Source: Ignavibacteriaceae bacterium (GTDB lineage: Bacteria > Bacteroidota > Ignavibacteria > Ignavibacteriales > Ignavibacteriaceae). From it: a DNA stretch of 37,621 nt. Location of the stretch: contig JACZKK010000221.1 of NCBI GenBank assembly GCA_014860115.1, positions 1 through 37,621 of the forward strand, given 5' to 3'. The position numbers and the translations under genes were made by a program. This document shows, one piece after another, positions 1 through 7,029 of the stretch. Position 1 is the first letter of the stretch; every line of letters begins with the position of its first letter. The notes below the pieces were generated by a model. It ran no database searches. It saw nothing but the letters and a program-made list of their open reading frames with translations, and had not been told where the DNA came from.

Positions 1-912
1 AAATACGCAATACTGGTAAGAGCAATTAATTCGAATACTAATGAGCTGAGCGGTGTAACAATTTATGATTACACAACTCCTGCAAAGATAAATGTTGTTA
101 CTGCAAATACGGGCAAAATTTATTTTACTGCAGATCAGAAAAATCTTGTTATGGATTTATGGCGCGGCGAAATTCATGAAGCAGATATAAAGGAAACAAG
201 TCTTTACAGGAAATTGATATATGATAAGCACAGAATCGTTATGGATGGCTCTCAGTTCTCTTTTCAGCAGTCACAGGGAGGAATACGAGGTGAGAGAGAA
301 TTAGGTGTTGATACCATGAGTGCGATCGTTGGCAATTTTCGGGCTGAGAGAGAGCAGCATCTCAAGTTTCTAAAAGCAGAAACTAATAAATATTTCTTCG
401 CTGATTCATCGTTTATATCATCCTTTCCAAATCGGGCAGTTGTAGTTGATGACAAATTAGTATTAGCCAGAGTGCTCGACAAAATAAGAACCGCAAAAAA
501 TAATATTACTTCAAAATCAAGAAGTGTGGAATTTTCTGACAGGGAAATTGAAAAGTATGAAGTTGAGATTTACAAGAAGTATGCTATCCCCGTAGCATGT
601 ATCGTTTTTATTTTGATCGGAGCTCCTCTGGGCGTTATGGTCCGAAAGGGCGGTTTCGGTGTTGCAGCGAGCATCAGCCTGTTTTTCTTCCTTATTTATT
701 GGGCGTTTCTGATAGGAGGAGAAAAACTTGCCGAGAGAGGATTCTTTTCACCTTTTATCGGAATGTGGGCTGCGAATTTCGTGCTTGGTTTCCTTGGAAT
801 AATTCTAACCATCAAAACAAACCGGGAAACAGTCACAATTACATTTAACTTCTTTAAGAAGCTTATTCCAAAGAGATTCAGGGCACATCAGGAAACAGAT
901 GAAAATTATTGA
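1..912 (+). CDS. LptF/LptG family permease, 5' end missing
   Basis: The reading frame is open from base 1, so this gene begins outside the window; an internal ATG at 151 is not the true start. The visible part has a periplasmic beta-rich region (roughly the first 180 residues), then transmembrane segments near AIPVACIVFILIGAPLGVMV and a further hydrophobic pair close to the C-terminus. This matches the C-terminal half of YjgP/YjgQ (LptF/LptG) permeases, which with LptB form the inner-membrane ABC transporter moving lipopolysaccharide towards the LptC/LptA bridge. It overlaps the next gene by 14 bases (ATG at 899, TGA at 910-912), which suggests translational coupling of two LptF/G subunits. 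Which is LptF and which LptG cannot be decided from this fragment. Confidence 0.85.
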   Translation, partial: KYAILVRAINSNTNELSGVTIYDYTTPAKINVVTANTGKIYFTADQKNLVMDLWRGEIHEADIKETSLYRKLIYDKHRIVMDGSQFSFQQSQGGIRGERELGVDTMSAIVGNFRAEREQHLKFLKAETNKYFFADSSFISSFPNRAVVVDDKLVLARVLDKIRTAKNNITSKSRSVEFSDREIEKYEVEIYKKYAIPVACIVFILIGAPLGVMVRKGGFGVAASISLFFFLIYWAFLIGGEKLAERGFFSPFIGMWAANFVLGFLGIILTIKTNRETVTITFNFFKKLIPKRFRAHQETDENY

Positions 913-1981
913 CAAGTATTTAATCCGGCAATTTCTGCAAACGGTATTTTTTAGTCTGCTTGCTTTCATCCTGATATTTCTTGTGATTGATGCAATGGAA
1001 AATCTTGATGATTTCATTGACCAGAATGTTCCGTGGATTAATATCCTTCATTACTATGTTGTATTCACGCCGGAAATAATAAAACTAATAACTCCTGTTG
1101 CTGTTCTTTTTGGTGCAATGTTCACTGCCGGTAAGGTATCAACGTTAAGTGAACTTACTGCAATGCGGGCAAGCGGAGTAAGCCTTTACCGTTTTATGGC
1201 TCCTTTCGTTGTTACATCTTTGCTCATCAGCATTATCTCTCTTTATTTTGGCGGATATATTGTGCCGATGGCAAACAAAACGAAAATCTATATCGAACAA
1301 ACTTATCTTAAAAAAGGTTTGAGCTTTACTGGCAGTAATATTTATTTCCAGGACAGCAAAACCAGAATTGTCAGCATTTCATACTTTGACAGTAATTTGA
1401 ATTGGGCAAACCGGGTTAGCATTCAGGATTTTAACGAACAAGACTTAACTGAAATGAGAGGAAGGATTGATGCACAAAAGCTTGAGTACGATTCACTTAG
1501 CGGATTGTGGATTGCACGGCAGGGAGTTAAAAGAACTTTTACTGATCAATCCGAAACGGCTGAATATTTTGACAGTCTGAAATTAAATGACCTTCACTTT
1601 CAGCCGGCTGATTTATCAAAGAAGCAGCAGAAACCTGCAGAGATGAACCTGGGTGAACTTTCAGATTTAATTGATTCACAAAAAAGAGCCGGTACTAATC
1701 CGGTTATTGCTCAGATAGAATATCATTCGCGTTTTGCTTTTGCAATGACATGCGTCATAATTGTTCTGTTTGGACTTCCGATATCTGCCAACAAAAGAAA
1801 AAGTGGACTGGCTGCTCAGGTTGGAATGAATATCCTAATCACTTTTATCTATCTTGTATTTATGAAAGTGAGTCAGGCATTTGGCAAGAACGGTGCGATG
1901 GATCCGGTTTTAACAGCCTGGTTTGCAAATCTGATTTTTATGGCTGGTACGTTTATTACATTGCCCAGGATGAAGTATTAG
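899..1981 (+). CDS. lptG: LptF/LptG family permease (LPS export)
   Basis: A complete 360-residue protein of the usual family length. It starts with a short cytoplasmic segment (MKIIDKYLIRQF), typical of LptF/LptG, followed by a hydrophobic helix at about residues 12-35 and more helices near 55-80 and 100-130. A periplasmic beta-jellyroll-like domain covers about 140-270, and three C-terminal helices end in a short tail. The gene overlaps the upstream permease gene by 14 bases, as expected for the paired subunits of an LptB2FG exporter in the inner membrane. The lptG symbol is tentative, because the family alone does not separate LptF from LptG. The stop codon is followed at once by the cassette-like island, so this gene marks the core/accessory boundary. 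Confidence 0.85.
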   Translation: MKIIDKYLIRQFLQTVFFSLLAFILIFLVIDAMENLDDFIDQNVPWINILHYYVVFTPEIIKLITPVAVLFGAMFTAGKVSTLSELTAMRASGVSLYRFMAPFVVTSLLISIISLYFGGYIVPMANKTKIYIEQTYLKKGLSFTGSNIYFQDSKTRIVSISYFDSNLNWANRVSIQDFNEQDLTEMRGRIDAQKLEYDSLSGLWIARQGVKRTFTDQSETAEYFDSLKLNDLHFQPADLSKKQQKPAEMNLGELSDLIDSQKRAGTNPVIAQIEYHSRFAFAMTCVIIVLFGLPISANKRKSGLAAQVGMNILITFIYLVFMKVSQAFGKNGAMDPVLTAWFANLIFMAGTFITLPRMKY

Positions 1982-2303
1982 AAAATCATTTTGAGGGTTT
2001 TTGTTGAAATTAAAAATAATGCTGTATAAGTTTGTTCTGCTCTTATTTGCCTACCCAGCATACAGCAAATCAAGAGGAGAAAAATGTTAATGGCTTAACA
2101 CAGAAGGACCAGATGAGGAGATAAACTAGATTTTATTTATGAAATCTCAAAAGATGATAGATCCACCAGAGGTGGACAAGTATGCACGAGCTATTTTTAA
2201 ATAATAAGATTTTGAGAAGATTTGAAAACAAATGGAACGTAGATATGCAACTGCACGCATATATATGTTCTTTAGTTAATAATTCCGTGCAGTATAAGTG
2301 ATA
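1982..2303 (+). other. Non-coding stretch with decayed coding remnants before cassette 1
   Basis: A 322-base stretch with no intact gene. Bases about 1991-2023 resemble 3261-3298 (shared core GGTTTTTGTTG plus AAATTAAAAA), so this looks like part of an attC-like site duplicated ahead of cassette 1. It holds a 23-codon ORF at 2019-2090 whose peptide looks like a signal peptide (MLYKFVLLLFAYPAYSKS). It is followed by short open stretches in different frames, for example a 21-codon ORF at 2139-2204, which may be a decayed gene. A small inverted repeat (CCACC AGA GGTGG) lies at about 2163-2175. No terminator, tRNA or convincing promoter was recognised. Confidence 0.4.
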
Positions 2304-2315
2304 GTTATAATGCTT
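2294..2315 (+). other. attC-like junction (R' side) ahead of cassette 1
   Basis: ATAAGTGATAGTTAT at 2294-2308 is identical to 3346-3360, ahead of the next gene. The segment GTTATAATGCTT (2304-2315) is the exact reverse complement of AAGCATTATAAC at 3202-3213, just after the gene. In integron cassettes the first bases of a cassette belong to its own attC and pair with the RYYYAAC-type box at its end, so this pairing places the insertion point between G2304 and T2305. The core differs from the GTTRRRY consensus at one of the R positions. Confidence 0.55.
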
Positions 2316-3200
2316 ATTAAAAAAATGAAGTATGTAGTCTATTTTATAATTCTTTTTCAGCTAACACTCTTAGGGCAAAGCAGTTTAGAGTTTGATAAAA
2401 TCGTTTTTTCAAGCGAAGGATGCTATGGTAACTGCCCAATTTTTGATTTAGAAATTAATCGAGATGGAACATTCTTTTATCGTGGCAGAAAAGATTCAAA
2501 GATTTTTGGCGATTATAAGGGAAGCTTTGATAAGAATATTTTTGGTACGATCTGCAATCTAAATTTTGTGAAAGATATTGATACTATAAAAACAGAGATA
2601 GTTTATAATGAATATGAAATAGATGGATATTTAACTAGCATTTCTTTTATAAAGAATGATTCGATTATATGTACAATAATAAATTTATCTACATTTGATG
2701 CTAATCAAAGTGAAAGTCCGGAGTACGATGAATTAGCAAAGTATCTTATAAGCCTGATCACTGAATCAAATATTAGGCAGAAAAGGGGTTTTAATTTTCA
2801 ATATCTGGCTGATGTATTTATTTCAGAAATCACCCGTGATAATGAAAAAATAACTCTTACAAATTCTCAAAATTATTTTCTTATTAATTATCTTGATAAA
2901 TATTCAACAATATCAGAAGGAGATAATTATTTACCTTATTCAACTTCATTCTCAGATTATGCAATGTACAGTGGTTATGATGATTATTATAGTAATATTT
3001 ATCTATCTGGAATTAATATTTTTGAGAAGGATGAAGTAGTAGATAAATTTGATCCTTCTGAAATCGAAAGAATAAAGAAAAAATATGAAAATTTACCGTC
3101 CGTTATAAAAACCAATGGTGAGATATTTTATTTTAAATTCATTTCAGGTAAGGAACAAAGTTTAAGAGTAAAAAAGAATATCATTAAATACTTAAAGTAG
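2310..3200 (+). CDS. Exported DUF6438-domain protein, cassette-borne
   Basis: A 296-residue protein starting with a signal-type hydrophobic segment (KYVVYFIILFQLTLLGQSS). Directly after it is a region with CYGNCPIFDLEI, then DGTFFYRGR and a GDYKG turn. This Cys-x-x-x-Cys-Pro pattern with a following beta-rich segment is characteristic of DUF6438, a domain of unknown function. The rest (about 120-296) is not recognised and is rich in Asp, Asn, Tyr and Ser. ATG 2310 lies inside the GTTATAATGCTT terminal repeat. A GTG at 2298 is also in frame but lies outside the putative cassette boundary, and ATG 2325 is the other candidate start. No Shine-Dalgarno sequence is seen. The gene is visibly more A+T-rich than its chromosomal neighbours, consistent with acquisition. 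Confidence 0.75.
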   Translation: MLIKKMKYVVYFIILFQLTLLGQSSLEFDKIVFSSEGCYGNCPIFDLEINRDGTFFYRGRKDSKIFGDYKGSFDKNIFGTICNLNFVKDIDTIKTEIVYNEYEIDGYLTSISFIKNDSIICTIINLSTFDANQSESPEYDELAKYLISLITESNIRQKRGFNFQYLADVFISEITRDNEKITLTNSQNYFLINYLDKYSTISEGDNYLPYSTSFSDYAMYSGYDDYYSNIYLSGINIFEKDEVVDKFDPSEIERIKKKYENLPSVIKTNGEIFYFKFISGKEQSLRVKKNIIKYLK

Positions 3201-3201
3201 C

Positions 3202-3362
3202 AAGCATTATAACAAGCGCCTCAACCCGACCGCAGTTTTAGTTCGGCGAATTTATAATTTTTGGCGTTTGGTTTTTGTTGGAAATTAAAAAAATTATGCA
3301 AAAGTTGAATGTGGAAAATAATTTATTCCTGCAAGTAGATGCGGGATAAGTGATAGTTATGT
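3202..3362 (+). other. attC-like recombination site between the two cassettes
   Basis: It begins AAGCATTATAAC (R''-like) followed by AAGCGCCTCAACCCGACCGC and ends GATAAGTGATAGTTATGT (R'-like). Internal complementarity supports a long folded strand: CCCG 3225-3228 with CGGG 3342-3345, GCAG 3232-3235 with CTGC 3329-3332, and ATAATTTTT 3254-3262 with AAAAATTAT 3289-3297. TAACAAG...CTCAA resembles the opening of Vibrio-type attC repeats. At about 160 bases it is slightly longer than typical attC sites. The L boxes pair poorly, so it may be divergent or inactive. Confidence 0.55.
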
Positions 3363-3366
3363 GCTT

Positions 3367-4122
3367 ATGAAAAAATATAGATTATTGGAAATCCTATTAA
3401 TTGCAACTTTACTAAGCAGTTGCAATTCTATTGAAGAAGAATATATAAGTATGCTAATAACAAGTAGTCACTTAGAATTTTATAATGACAATACTTTTAT
3501 AGATAAAACTACTTCAGATATAGTTGGACCTGATGGAAGTTCTGAGCCGTTGATTATAAAGGGGAAATATGTAAGGATAGATGAAGGAATTGTTTTATTT
3601 TATGAACGGAATAATTTTGCTGATACTCTTTATTATGTTAATTGGGGAGAAAGAATATTTTTAATAAGCAAAATCGGAATTATTCATTTATGTAATGAAA
3701 TTAATTTAGGAAAGATAGATTATAAAGATTATAATGGCTTAACGTGGTTATGGACAAATATAAAAACTATAGATGGAAAAGTTGATAGCATTCCAAAATT
3801 ACCTAAAAGATATTCTCAATATATATTTCAAGATTCCATAACAGCTAAAGTCATTGATATAGATATGGATTTGTTATCATTACAAATTGATAAAGGAAAT
3901 GATTCAAAATTGTTTATTGGATGTGAATTAATGGATGGAGATTATTCATATACGGTTAAATCTGTTCAAAGTAATATTTCTGTTCTACAACCTACTCGTC
4001 TTTATTGGGATATTTTCTATAATAAAAGTTCTGGAAGTGATACATTATCTCTTCCGCTTGAAGAATATAAAATTGAATTGAATAAATTAGAAGTGGGGAA
4101 AAGTCTATACGCAAAAAAATAA
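3367..4122 (+). CDS. Hypothetical lipoprotein, cassette-borne
   Basis: A 251-residue protein with a clear lipoprotein signal: MKKYRLLEILLIATLLSSC, with the lipobox LSSC placing the lipidated cysteine at residue 19. The remainder is predicted soluble and beta-rich and matches no family I recognise. The segment HLEFYNDNTFID plus a later GKYVRIDEGIVLFYE resembles a generic 'show value against threshold' beta motif seen in small lipoproteins, but this is weak. ATG 3367 is chosen over GTG 3361 because it gives the usual MKK start. It follows the cassette boundary GTTATGTGCTT (3356-3366) directly, and no Shine-Dalgarno sequence is visible. The reverse complement of that boundary lies two bases after the stop codon. 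The gene is strongly A+T-rich, like the preceding one. Confidence 0.7.
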   Translation: MKKYRLLEILLIATLLSSCNSIEEEYISMLITSSHLEFYNDNTFIDKTTSDIVGPDGSSEPLIIKGKYVRIDEGIVLFYERNNFADTLYYVNWGERIFLISKIGIIHLCNEINLGKIDYKDYNGLTWLWTNIKTIDGKVDSIPKLPKRYSQYIFQDSITAKVIDIDMDLLSLQIDKGNDSKLFIGCELMDGDYSYTVKSVQSNISVLQPTRLYWDIFYNKSSGSDTLSLPLEEYKIELNKLEVGKSLYAKK

Positions 4123-4123
4123 A

Positions 4124-4180
4124 AAGCACATAACAAGTTGCTCAAGCCAACCGCTTCTTTCGCTTTCGGCATTTTCATAA
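4124..4180 (+). other. attC-like site after cassette 2, 5' half only
   Basis: AAGCACATAAC (4124-4134) is the exact reverse complement of GTTATGTGCTT at the start of the same cassette (3356-3366). It is followed by AAGTTGCTCAAGCCAACCGC, which matches the equivalent segment at 3214-3233 in most positions, and by a TTCGGC also shared with the first site. No partner R' end was found before the neighbouring gene's terminator hairpin, unless GTTAAAT at 4222-4228 serves. The site is therefore probably truncated. Confidence 0.5.
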
Positions 4181-4184
4181 CAAC

Positions 4185-4209
4185 AAAAAAGGCGAGTCAT
4201 CGACTCGCC
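4185..4209 (-). terminator. Rho-independent terminator of the DUF3467 gene
   Basis: Read on the minus strand, an 8-bp stem GGCGAGTC/GACTCGCC (4191-4209, 3-base loop) is followed by a run of six T (4190-4185). It lies about 60 bases beyond the stop of the DUF3467 gene. The flanks TTGTAGAGGCGA resemble the start of the hairpin at 10782-10819, so this may be a dispersed repeat used as a terminator. Confidence 0.75.
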
Positions 4210-4234
4210 TCTACAATTTATGTTAAATCAGTTT

Positions 4235-4253
4235 CCCTTCCCATCGGGAAGGG
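4235..4253. repeat. Short perfect hairpin CCCTTCCC-ATC-GGGAAGGG
   Basis: An 8-bp perfect inverted repeat with a 3-base loop. A following GGGATGGG (at about 4259) offers an alternative pairing with CCCATC. It lies between the terminator and the stop of the DUF3467 gene, so it would be in that transcript's 3' end. It could be a dispersed palindromic element, but only one copy is seen here. Confidence 0.5.
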
Positions 4254-4269
4254 ACAAAGGGATGGGCTT

Positions 4270-4596
4270 TTAATTCACCTTCTCAGGTCCTTTAGGAGGA
4301 ACAAAACCAAAATGCTGGTCCTGCGGTATTTCCATTTTAATCTCACCAAAGCGTGCTTCAAACTTTTCAATGTTATCTTTTAGCGCTTTCAAAAGCATCT
4401 TAGCGTGCTGTGGGGTGGTGATAATCCGCGATAGCACTTTTGCTTTCGGCACACCCGGCACAATGCGTGTGAAATCAATAATGAATTCTGCCGGCGAGTG
4501 AGTAATAATAGCAAGGTTGGAATAAATTCCTTCCCCTTCTTTCTCACCAAGCTCTATATTTATCTGCTGTCCCTGAGGAGGTTTGTTCTGGTTCAT
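4270..4596 (-). CDS. DUF3467 domain-containing protein
   Basis: A protein of about 108 residues with the hallmark DUF3467 core: INIELGEKEGEGIYSNLAII, THSPAEFIIDF, PGVPKAKVLSRIITTPQHAK and ALKDNIEKFEARFG. The family is small, cytoplasmic and of unknown function, common in Bacteroidota and other phyla. The N-terminal 15 residues and the C-terminal tail (GFVPPKGPEKVN) are low complexity. ATG 4596 is preferred; GTG 4605 is in frame and would add MKK. The gene begins 10 bases after the stop of the upstream TPR lipoprotein gene, so the two are probably cotranscribed, ending at the terminator at 4185-4209. Confidence 0.85.
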   Translation of the reverse strand: MNQNKPPQGQQINIELGEKEGEGIYSNLAIITHSPAEFIIDFTRIVPGVPKAKVLSRIITTPQHAKMLLKALKDNIEKFEARFGEIKMEIPQDQHFGFVPPKGPEKVN

Positions 4597-4606
4597 TTTT
4601 TTCACT

Positions 4607-5770
4607 TTATCTTAATTCATCTGCTTTTTTAAATGCATTATTTGCATCTTCAGTCATTCCAAGAACGGAATAAACTTTACCAAGAAGCTCCCATAACACA
4701 ATATTAGTTGAATCTTTTTCAACAACCTTCTCAAGGTAAGGTAACGATGCTTCATACTTCTTTTTATAATCCTCGCTCAAAATTCCTTTGGCTTCAGCTT
4801 CTTTGTTCATAGCTGTTCCCCAGGTAACATATGTAACACCAAGATTATAAATGGCATTGTCATAATCAGGATCAATTTCAATCGCCTTCAAGAAATGAGT
4901 CTCAGCTTCCTGATACTCGCCCATTTTAAGAAGAACGTAAGCATAATTGTAATGATGGAATTTGTTATCAGGTTCTTTTTCTGTTAAAGCTTTAGCCGAA
5001 CTTGACGCTTCTGCCATTCTGCCTACTCCAATATAAGCATTGAATTTTGTGTTTAATAAATCGGAATTCTCAGGGTATAGTTTCAGTCCTTCATCAACTG
5101 TTTCTATTGCTTGAGCATAATAATCCATTCCCTTAATACTATCTTGAGGATTCTTATCAAATTTAAAATCATTCATAAGATTAGCACCGAGTGCATAATA
5201 AAGTTCACCCAGGTACTGATAACCTTCTTCAGCCTGCTCTAGTTCAATAAGTTTATTAAGTGGTTCAATGGATTCCTCATTTCTTCCAGTAGTCAAATAA
5301 ACGAAAGCAAGACTTCTATATGTATCACTGGAATCTGGTTCAAGCATAATTGCTTTTTTATAAGCTTCGATAGCCATATCAAAATACATTTTGGAGCTAT
5401 CTTCATCAGTGGTTTTGTTTCCTCTTTGGTAAAGATTTACACCTCTGTTAAAGTTATTTCCCCACTGATAGCCTCTATATTCTTCAATTTGAATTGCAAA
5501 CTTATTGCTGATTGAGAGCGAGTTATTAAACGCCTCGATCATTTTTTCTACGCTATCAAGTTCACTGTAAACTCTACCAAGATAATAATATCCTTCATCA
5601 CTCTTAGGATTTTTCTGAATATCTGCTTGAAGCATTTCTATAGCTTTTACCCAATTTTTTTGATCGTAATAAAGCTTGGCACTGGTGAGTTCGGTTGAGG
5701 CACACTGGAATCCAAGGAACATCAATCCAATAAATAACATTACGAAGACAAGTAGTTTGGAATTTTTCAT
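4607..5770 (-). CDS. TPR-repeat lipoprotein
   Basis: A 387-residue protein starting MKNSKLLVFVMLFIGLMF, with a likely lipobox ending at Cys 23 (GFQC), so it is probably membrane-anchored. Tandem tetratricopeptide repeats fill the rest, for example KNPKSDEGYYYLGRVYSELD, LEPDSSDTYRSLAFVYLTTG, NKFHHYNYAYVLLKMGEYQE and DPDYDNAIYNLGVTYVTWG. TPR arrays mediate protein-protein contacts, and no catalytic domain is present. ATG 5770 is chosen because GGAG sits 5 bases upstream and the signal peptide starts there. A frame extension to 5881 lacks these features. The gene is divergent from the adenosine deaminase-family gene, and the 179-base gap between them must hold both promoters. The specific role is unknown. 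Confidence 0.8.
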   Translation of the reverse strand: MKNSKLLVFVMLFIGLMFLGFQCASTELTSAKLYYDQKNWVKAIEMLQADIQKNPKSDEGYYYLGRVYSELDSVEKMIEAFNNSLSISNKFAIQIEEYRGYQWGNNFNRGVNLYQRGNKTTDEDSSKMYFDMAIEAYKKAIMLEPDSSDTYRSLAFVYLTTGRNEESIEPLNKLIELEQAEEGYQYLGELYYALGANLMNDFKFDKNPQDSIKGMDYYAQAIETVDEGLKLYPENSDLLNTKFNAYIGVGRMAEASSSAKALTEKEPDNKFHHYNYAYVLLKMGEYQEAETHFLKAIEIDPDYDNAIYNLGVTYVTWGTAMNKEAEAKGILSEDYKKKYEASLPYLEKVVEKDSTNIVLWELLGKVYSVLGMTEDANNAFKKADELR

Positions 5771-5949
5771 ACTAACTCCATTCTTATAGATGATTAAAGT
5801 TATTGATTTGTTAATTTCAGATGAATTTTGTGCTTCAAAAATACAATTATTCTGCTTAAAAGACAGATATATAAAAATCACAGTACTCCGGTTTAAATTG
5901 ATTTTGGGGGCTTAAAAGGGTAATTTTTGAGTAGAAAATAGAGGAAATT

Positions 5950-7029
5950 TTGATAACCAAAGAAATAATAAATTCTGTTCCGAAAGTTCTTCTGCACGAT
6001 CATCTTGATGGAGGACTGAGACCACAAACCATAATTGATCTGGCTGATGATCTGAATTATAAAAAACTGCCAACAAGGGATAAAGATGAACTTGCTGATT
6101 GGTTTCATATCGGTGCAAACAAAGGCAGCCTCGTTGAGTTTCTGAAAGGCTTTGAGCACACTACTGCAGTTATGCAAACCAAAGAGGGATTGGAAAGAGT
6201 TGCTTATGAAATGATGGAAGATATGAAAGCAGATGGAGTTGCTTATGTGGAAACGAGGTTTGCGCCAATATATCATACAGATAAGGATTTGTACCTTGAA
6301 GATACTGTCACAGCAGTGCTAAAGGGATTAGAGAGAGGAAAAAAAGATTTTGGTGTTGGCTATGGTTTGATTCTCTGCGGTATGAGAAATATGAAAAACA
6401 CTCTTGAGATAGCAGAGCTTGCAGTGAATTTCAGAAATGATGGAGTTGTTGGATTTGATCTTGCAGGTGAAGAAGGCGGCTACCCGCCCAAGAAACATGT
6501 TGATGCATTTCAATTTATTCAGCGTTCTAATTTTAACATTACTATTCACGCAGGCGAAGCATTCGGAAAAGAATCTATCTGGCAGGCTATTCAATGGTGT
6601 GGAGCGCATAGAATAGGACACGCAACAAGATTACTTGAAGACATTGTGCTCAACGATAGCGGTGAAGTTGTAAGCTTCGGTGAACTAGCCCAATATGTGC
6701 TTGATAAACGAATTCCGCTGGAGATTTGTCTTTTAAGTAACCTTCACACCGGTGCAGTAGATAAACTGGAAAATCATCCTTTCGGGATTTTATTCAAGGA
6801 AAAATTCAGGGTTACAATAAATACCGATGACCGGTTAATGAGCGCCACTAATATGACGCAGGAATTTTTAACCGCTGTGAAATATTTTAACCTCACATTT
6901 GATCAAATTGAAAAAATCACAATTAACTCGATGAAATCGGCTTTCATTCCTTACAAAGAAAGGCTTCGATACATTTACGATATTATTAAACCGGGATATC
7001 AAAAATTCCGGGATCAATCAACCAACTAA
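5950..7029 (+). CDS. add: Adenosine deaminase family protein
   Basis: A 359-residue metal-dependent deaminase of usual length. Motifs in order: metal-binding HDHLDG (His16, His18), VETRFAP, GFDLAGEEGG, ITIHAGEAFG (His200 and the catalytic-type Glu203), AHRIGHA, and NTDDRL (Asp293-Asp294). Adenosine deaminase converts (deoxy)adenosine to (deoxy)inosine in purine salvage. Some members instead act on 6-aminodeoxyfutalosine in menaquinone synthesis, which cannot be excluded here. The start is TTG 5950, with GAGGA a few bases upstream; no ATG precedes the conserved N-terminus. It heads a probable operon with the 111-residue unknown protein (10-base gap) and urocanate hydratase. Confidence 0.88.
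   Translation: MITKEIINSVPKVLLHDHLDGGLRPQTIIDLADDLNYKKLPTRDKDELADWFHIGANKGSLVEFLKGFEHTTAVMQTKEGLERVAYEMMEDMKADGVAYVETRFAPIYHTDKDLYLEDTVTAVLKGLERGKKDFGVGYGLILCGMRNMKNTLEIAELAVNFRNDGVVGFDLAGEEGGYPPKKHVDAFQFIQRSNFNITIHAGEAFGKESIWQAIQWCGAHRIGHATRLLEDIVLNDSGEVVSFGELAQYVLDKRIPLEICLLSNLHTGAVDKLENHPFGILFKEKFRVTINTDDRLMSATNMTQEFLTAVKYFNLTFDQIEKITINSMKSAFIPYKERLRYIYDIIKPGYQKFRDQSTN

Follow-up and report, generated by a model that had tools for sequence, protein, structure and literature searches.

A small cassette array headed by a predicted attI site, without an adjacent integrase gene, in an Ignavibacteriaceae genome

How did two gene cassettes come to lie in a chromosomal gap in which no integrase gene stands beside them? 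This question is raised by a stretch of 37,621 nt from an Ignavibacteriaceae bacterium (the window), which is an entire contig (C70) of a draft assembly of 3.93 Mb in 222 contigs (this genome is labelled G000 below). Integron surveys rely on intI and attC for detection, and an array in which intI is missing is often read as a degraded integron. We hold with moderate confidence that positions 2153-4180 are a small attI-headed integron array without an adjacent intI, the attI of which would have been gained in this lineage, in a group in which attI modules would be copied and served by an integrase in trans.

The two cassettes and their chromosomal setting

Both cassettes were delimited by their own ends. 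The sequence GTTATAATGCTT (2304-2315) is the perfect reverse complement of 3202-3213 and GTTATGTGCTT (3356-3366) that of 4124-4134, with no extra base pairs beyond; R' and R'' of each unit, as tested for gene cassettes, are thus perfectly complementary over 12 and 11 nt. These two are the only GTTA-initial inverted pairs of 11-mers more than 100 nt apart in 1900-4300, while 300 dinucleotide-preserving shuffles yielded a mean of 0.017 pairs and never two pairs (0/300). The initial annotation, in which this self-complementarity had been noticed, is borne out here, as is its argument that cassette-circle recombination predicts pairing of each cassette with itself. At 21 of 33 attC sites in arrays of relatives, 9-12 nt of own-end complementarity to a later cassette end were counted; the other 12 sites have 0-8 nt, several of them lying at the end of the sequence examined. 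Cassette 1 is placed at 2305-3356 and cassette 2 at 3357-4180 (both forward strand), the latter being truncated inside its attC, with an approximate right limit.

The cassette 1 ORF (2310-3200, forward strand, ATG at 2310 or 2325) encodes an exported-looking protein with a DUF6438 domain (PF20033, E 6.1e-13), for which three partial matches of 27-34% identity were obtained among 163 other genomes of the order. The cassette 2 ORF (3367-4122, forward strand) is lipoprotein-like; its product had no Pfam match at E 0.1 and no match at E 0.001 among the same 163 genomes. Read by eye, both translations open with a hydrophobic signal-like stretch and the second has a lipobox-like LLSSC near its N-terminus, in keeping with the exported proteins that had been proposed. 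The genes are also as A+T-rich as had been described, with GC contents of 26.8% and 26.3% vs 37.2% in the remainder of the window, where 337 overlapping stretches of 800 nt range from 31.0 to 44.9%. The shared TAACAAG...CTCAA...ACCGC block was again seen 3' of both genes, and a 15-mer, ATAAGTGATAGTTAT, has exactly two copies in the 3.93-Mb assembly, both in this array.

The array is flanked by lptG on the left (899-1981, forward strand; Pfam LptF_LptG, E 2.9e-81) and by a DUF3467 gene on the right (4270-4605, reverse strand; PF11950, E 1.8e-31). In three congeners (G003, G002 and G001) lptG is 93, 88 and 75% identical and the DUF3467 gene, which lies near it, 95, 95 and 85% identical; among Ignavibacteriaceae MAGs, identity of lptG is 93% in L065, 81% over 215 residues in L137 and 75% in L066. 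The two genes are 2295 nt apart here vs 273, 92 and 413 nt in G003, G002 and G001, and attI and cassettes are absent from the gap in all three congeners having both genes, so that the search for empty sites after lptG that had been suggested was successful. At 16 more distant loci the distance from lptG to the DUF3467 gene is about 3-5 kb. Among the lptG-DUF3467 loci compared, the cassette ORFs were matched in the window's own genome only. A hairpin at 4186-4212, coming from the ancestral gap, marks the right limit of the insertion (4185-4218 is 85% identical to L065 over 34 nt, and the hairpin in L069 is similar). On the left, the stretch between the lptG stop codon and the attI module (1982-2152) has no significant match in the congener gaps; it may predate the insertion as intergenic sequence or belong to the insert. 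Because three congeners lack attI and cassettes in this gap, comparison of the loci shows that both entered it within the lineage of this species.

The attI site and the incomplete attC sites

The block preceding cassette 1 was compared with a model (R3) of six attI sites adjoining intI in relatives (G023, G012, G046, G045, G043 and G039), from which the window was excluded. R3 matched 2225-2307 with 74.2 bits (own-genome E 4.7e-20). According to this model match, the block is the end of a complete, predicted attI site, and the expected recombination point is G2304/T2305. It had been read as a part common to both cassettes before their boundaries; it is indeed present twice, but is the end of attI and no part of attC. 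Together with an upstream repeat region, the site forms an attI module at 2153-2304 (forward strand). By blastn, window positions ~2153-2299 are 76% identical over 149 nt to the region that follows intI in G039, and the similarity to intI-adjacent loci reaches upstream to ~2153, which is just past the end of intI in those loci. The same block is found 3' of intI in relatives, at a distance of ~120-180 nt (L020, L024, L029, L030, L034 and L017) or ~520 nt (L033). The intI-adjacent sites of relatives comprise several attI types, and the type in the window matches that of the six genomes of the model. The attI is nearly palindromic at 2232-2270 (GGAACGTAGATATGC...GCATATATATGTTC), where R3 also matched the reverse strand (19.5 bits).

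An earlier idea on this region was given up. The upstream block had been taken for a right half belonging to a third attC, with a two-cassette circle opened within attC, which was dropped as the block is attI. Three loci of relatives seemed to begin with a right half and to end with a left half; a closer scan revealed at least one weak partner half in each of them.

An alternative in which attI has no part is that a distant integrase placed the cassettes off-target, at an attG site of the chromosome. Insertion at attG is described as a process (PMC12901181; Loot 2024 as cited in PMC12444791) and an intI exists in the genome. However, cassette 1 is joined to attI (E 4.7e-20), which contradicts the attG reading, and the final attC is incomplete, whereas a single insertion at attG would leave a complete one. 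We therefore regard this alternative as very improbable.

For the attC sites, a left-half model (R1, 33 sites from the arrays of relatives, window excluded) and a right-half model (R2, 32 sites from relatives) were used; in the arrays of relatives both halves are conserved. R1 matched the end of cassette 1 at 3206-3251 (39.7 bits, own-genome E 1.3e-9) and that of cassette 2 at 4125-4174 (24.9 bits, own-genome E 6.0e-5), so that the left half (R''-L'') of this clade is present at both cassette ends, as a proposed check with an attC model had led one to expect. With filters off, R2 found no right half (L'-R') above chance in 1-6600, its best score there being 1.3 bits (E 2.4) at a place away from the cassette ends. 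Tested as a CALIN, the locus has two attC left halves near no intI and no complete canonical attC. The cluster of attC sites put forward in the initial annotation is upheld for the left halves only: both predicted sites are non-canonical, site 1 (3202-3363, forward strand) being a hybrid and site 2 (4124-4180, forward strand) a left half without its right half.

In the hybrid, the attC left half (3206-3251) is followed by an attI-like core at about 3340-3360, which is identical to the local attI (2288-2308) at 19 of 21 nt. The two share a G (ATAAGTGATAG), a position at which the nine intI-adjacent sites compared have an A. On its own, the core is matched weakly by R3, which scores 3333-3359 at 9.2 bits (E 0.015 for a search of 6.6 kb). 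Our reading of 3340-3360 is that of a putative attI-derived core fused onto the left half of attC1. A similar fusion, with another attI type, occurs in G002 (L200), and two further ones were recognized by eye in G004:C263, one of them with a left-half match of 12.1 bits. When the bottom-strand pairing of the two halves was calculated, site 1 gave -10.1 kcal/mol (z -1.24; equalled by 25 of 200 shuffles) and the hybrid of G002 -7.3 (z -0.48; 59 of 200), while 32 canonical sites had a median of -18.9 kcal/mol and a median z of -3.9 (range -6.2 to -0.26). The halves of site 1 in the window thus likely pair weakly, and when site 1 was folded as single-stranded DNA, it was equalled by 147 of 200 shuffles (z +0.61). 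A repeat (1996-2032 vs 3270-3306, 78%), which was first taken for an attC spacer, was not relied on.

That R2 found nothing above chance and that the single strand of site 1 folds no better than shuffles would suit a non-integron explanation, by which two genes merely have inverted ends by chance. Against it, the separate models for attI and attC left halves, the end complementarity and the empty sites in congeners all agree, and we give this explanation practically no weight.

The genome-wide search for more sites that had been recommended did yield further attC sites outside the window. Isolated attC left halves are located at C79:2141-2172 (L196, 22.8 bits) and at C12:53690-53717 (L203, 14.4 bits) of the same genome, the latter resembling, on visual inspection, an attC that has lost its central part.

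Integrase genes and detached attI sites

The window (C70) contains no match to TIGR02249 over the cut-off and no IntI-like sequence by tblastn at E 0.01, including the 2.2 kb upstream of attI. With regard to a complete integron, an attI was thus found at the head of the array and no intI adjoining it. The initial annotation had noted the lack of an integrase, which is right for the locus but not for the genome: contig C69 encodes an IntI (ORF of 330 aa, 401 bits vs a curated cut-off of 265) with its own attI and cassette. Its orientation is classical, with attI upstream of intI and on the opposite strand. The C69 attI (C69:10196) reads ATAAGTATTAG|TTATATGGC and is followed by a cassette ORF running off the contig end. 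The beginning of contig C156, VYK*, is compatible with the terminus of the G002 (L200) homologue of this ORF, and the first attC end of C156 is complementary to the cassette start of C69. On account of these two observations, C69 (9029-10769, L015) and C156 (1-2000, L195) are most likely parts of one integron with about three predicted attC sites, one strong and two weaker. The cassette ORFs of this integron and those of the intI-less G002 array (L200) appear homologous by eye. Since C69 IntI has 49-60% identity to 20 IntI proteins of relatives and since the C69 attI differs in type from the attI in the window, use of this integrase in trans at the window can be inferred only.

Sites of the window type recur in relatives. 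Over 59 genomes, R3 yielded at least 28 matches at E <= 1.1e-9, a count that omits shorter opposite-strand matches of the palindromic part; attC and attI counts are lower bounds, as the best 150 or 76 candidates per genome were scored, and other attI types are covered poorly by R3. Six of the matches are the model's own sites beside intI, and at least 22, the window included, are near no IntI over the cut-off. As the sites in R3 were chosen for an adjoining intI, 6 vs 22 is a biased ratio. The intI genes of G023 and G043, both in the R3 set, contain an in-frame stop. Counts of an exact attI-core pattern were rejected as evidence (44 matches vs 25 for a reversed control in 59 genomes), and because of this noise the R3 model was used instead; a third match to the pattern in G000 (C221) scored only 9.3 bits with R3 and is probably due to chance.

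The surroundings were examined for 23 detached sites, namely these 22 and a weaker one (G012:C83), with 21 IntI proteins as queries. In 22 of the 23 stretches, no IntI-like sequence was detected at E 0.01; the upstream sequence covered was 20 nt for G052:C93, 381 nt for G025:C43, 1300 nt for G004:C116 and 2.2-3.1 kb otherwise. The exception is G025:C57, where a 33-residue IntI fragment is retained at the attI. Same-strand attC half-sites of more than 11 bits lie within 6 kb downstream of 19 of the 23 sites, and the four sites without them had 0, 335, 574 and 1179 nt of downstream sequence. No stretch had attC half-sites on the opposite strand (0/23), and two had one each upstream on the same strand. 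The complete genome of G002 contains three sites of the window type and one of another type at 137 kb.

Probable copying of attI regions and loss of intI

The intI-less attI at 137 kb in G002 and the intI-adjacent attI of that genome share 98.8% identity over 252 nt, about the last 65 nt of intI included, which argues that attI copying occurs. The left flank of the same copy matches the amidohydrolase gene beside the C69 intI of G000 (79% over 222 nt; relatedness of loci, both here and for the type-A sites below, was judged by blastn only), and from this match the array at 137 kb would be an old integron locus in which intI is gone and attI has been replaced. Related attI copies are also present within G018, G001 and G025. 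Copying of attI and loss of intI thus both seem to happen in this group, as judged from these alignments. In one apparently orthologous pair, G002:1547k and G004:C116, the conservation of attI does not exceed that of its flank (78% vs 81%). The attI core of this pair is intact in G004 (L239, L336) and altered in G002 (L202, L333), and the gene upstream of both arrays is one that we take to be yajQ-like. At G018:C154 (L033), the intI match is limited to positions 1-292 of 315, the last part apparently lying beside attI some hundred nt further on; the attI copy at 137 kb in G002 begins at nearly the same point of intI as this break.

Loss of intI bears directly on the window, since the array could be the relic of a complete integron between lptG and the DUF3467 gene, in which intI was deleted and attI, two cassettes and broken attC sites were left. 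Such loss is one of the three origins proposed for arrays without intI, including CALINs, in PMC8618304. The IntI fragment at G025:C57, the G002:137k array, which sits on the integron locus of G000 with only the intI end remaining, and the lack of a canonical right half in both attC sites of the window are consistent with it. On the other hand, the 2.2 kb upstream of the window attI contain no IntI-like sequence, there are ~170 nt between the lptG stop and the attI module, the three congeners have neither attI nor cassettes at this locus, and in the type-A sites compared the likeness to intI-adjacent loci starts past the intI stop codon. We consider a relic the less likely reading, but one to be taken seriously. 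Because no trace of intI was found upstream and three congeners lack the unit, arrival of the attI without a lasting intI neighbour is favoured.

For the favoured attI-headed array, the following course may be proposed. The attI modules would be dispersed as copies of the attI region, and a distant intI, in this genome perhaps that of C69, would supply the enzyme that acts in trans on an attI without intI. From the anatomy of the array, the integrase would have captured cassette 2 first and cassette 1 second, both at G2304/T2305, which would result in the order attI - ORF - attC-left::attI-core. As the right half of attC2 is lost, the array is probably mostly frozen; cassette 1 may perhaps still be movable. 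Use of intI-less arrays in trans is stated to be possible (PMC12444791, PMC9668308). Going further, we tentatively suggest, as a doubtful extension, that attI in Ignavibacteriales is a dispersible module: a genome would carry several attI-headed cassette arrays remote from any intI, as with the three sites of the window type and the one of another type in G002, and a single integrase would act on many of them in trans. This would amount to a 'distributed integron', in which a first cassette has several possible positions. PMC3607928 states that an integron has one attI only. If free attI sites were used in trans, such arrays would be live capture sites, a genome could have several first-cassette positions, and many CALINs would need re-reading.

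Integrons have already been reported in Ignavibacteriae (PMC9024848), contrary to the earlier remark that attC sites are little described in this phylum; for the detached, attI-headed layout we found no counterpart in print. In the open-access literature, no description was found of an attI at the head of a CALIN, nor of an attI-headed array without intI or of multiple or orphan attI sites, which is weak evidence of novelty. The array resembles a CALIN in its attC-type cassette ends and in having no intI nearby, but CALINs are defined by attC alone, whereas this array is headed by attI and has no complete attC. With the complete chromosomal integrons of relatives (G023, G012 and G046) it shares the attI type, and with these and C69/C156 the kind of attC left half and the one-way cassettes, but not the intI beside attI. 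Its order, with the putative core, also resembles that of the delta-attI cassettes known from class 1 and class 2 integrons, which consist of attI, an ORF and a partial attI with a short core ending in GTT; excision has been demonstrated for several of them (PMC12901181). In those cassettes the partial attI replaces attC, whereas the hybrid site retains an attC left half ahead of the core, and the present case is chromosomal and in Ignavibacteriales. The hybrid sites may be chromosomal cases for the origin of partial-attI cassettes. As in the reversed-intI integrons described for Treponema and archaea (PMC3607928, PMC9668308), attI lies 3' of intI and the cassettes are co-directional in the arrays of relatives; the attI sites of Treponema and archaea adjoin intI, unlike the one in the window, and the C69 intI is classical in its orientation. 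In the arrays of relatives that were examined, intI and cassettes run in the same direction, unlike in C69.
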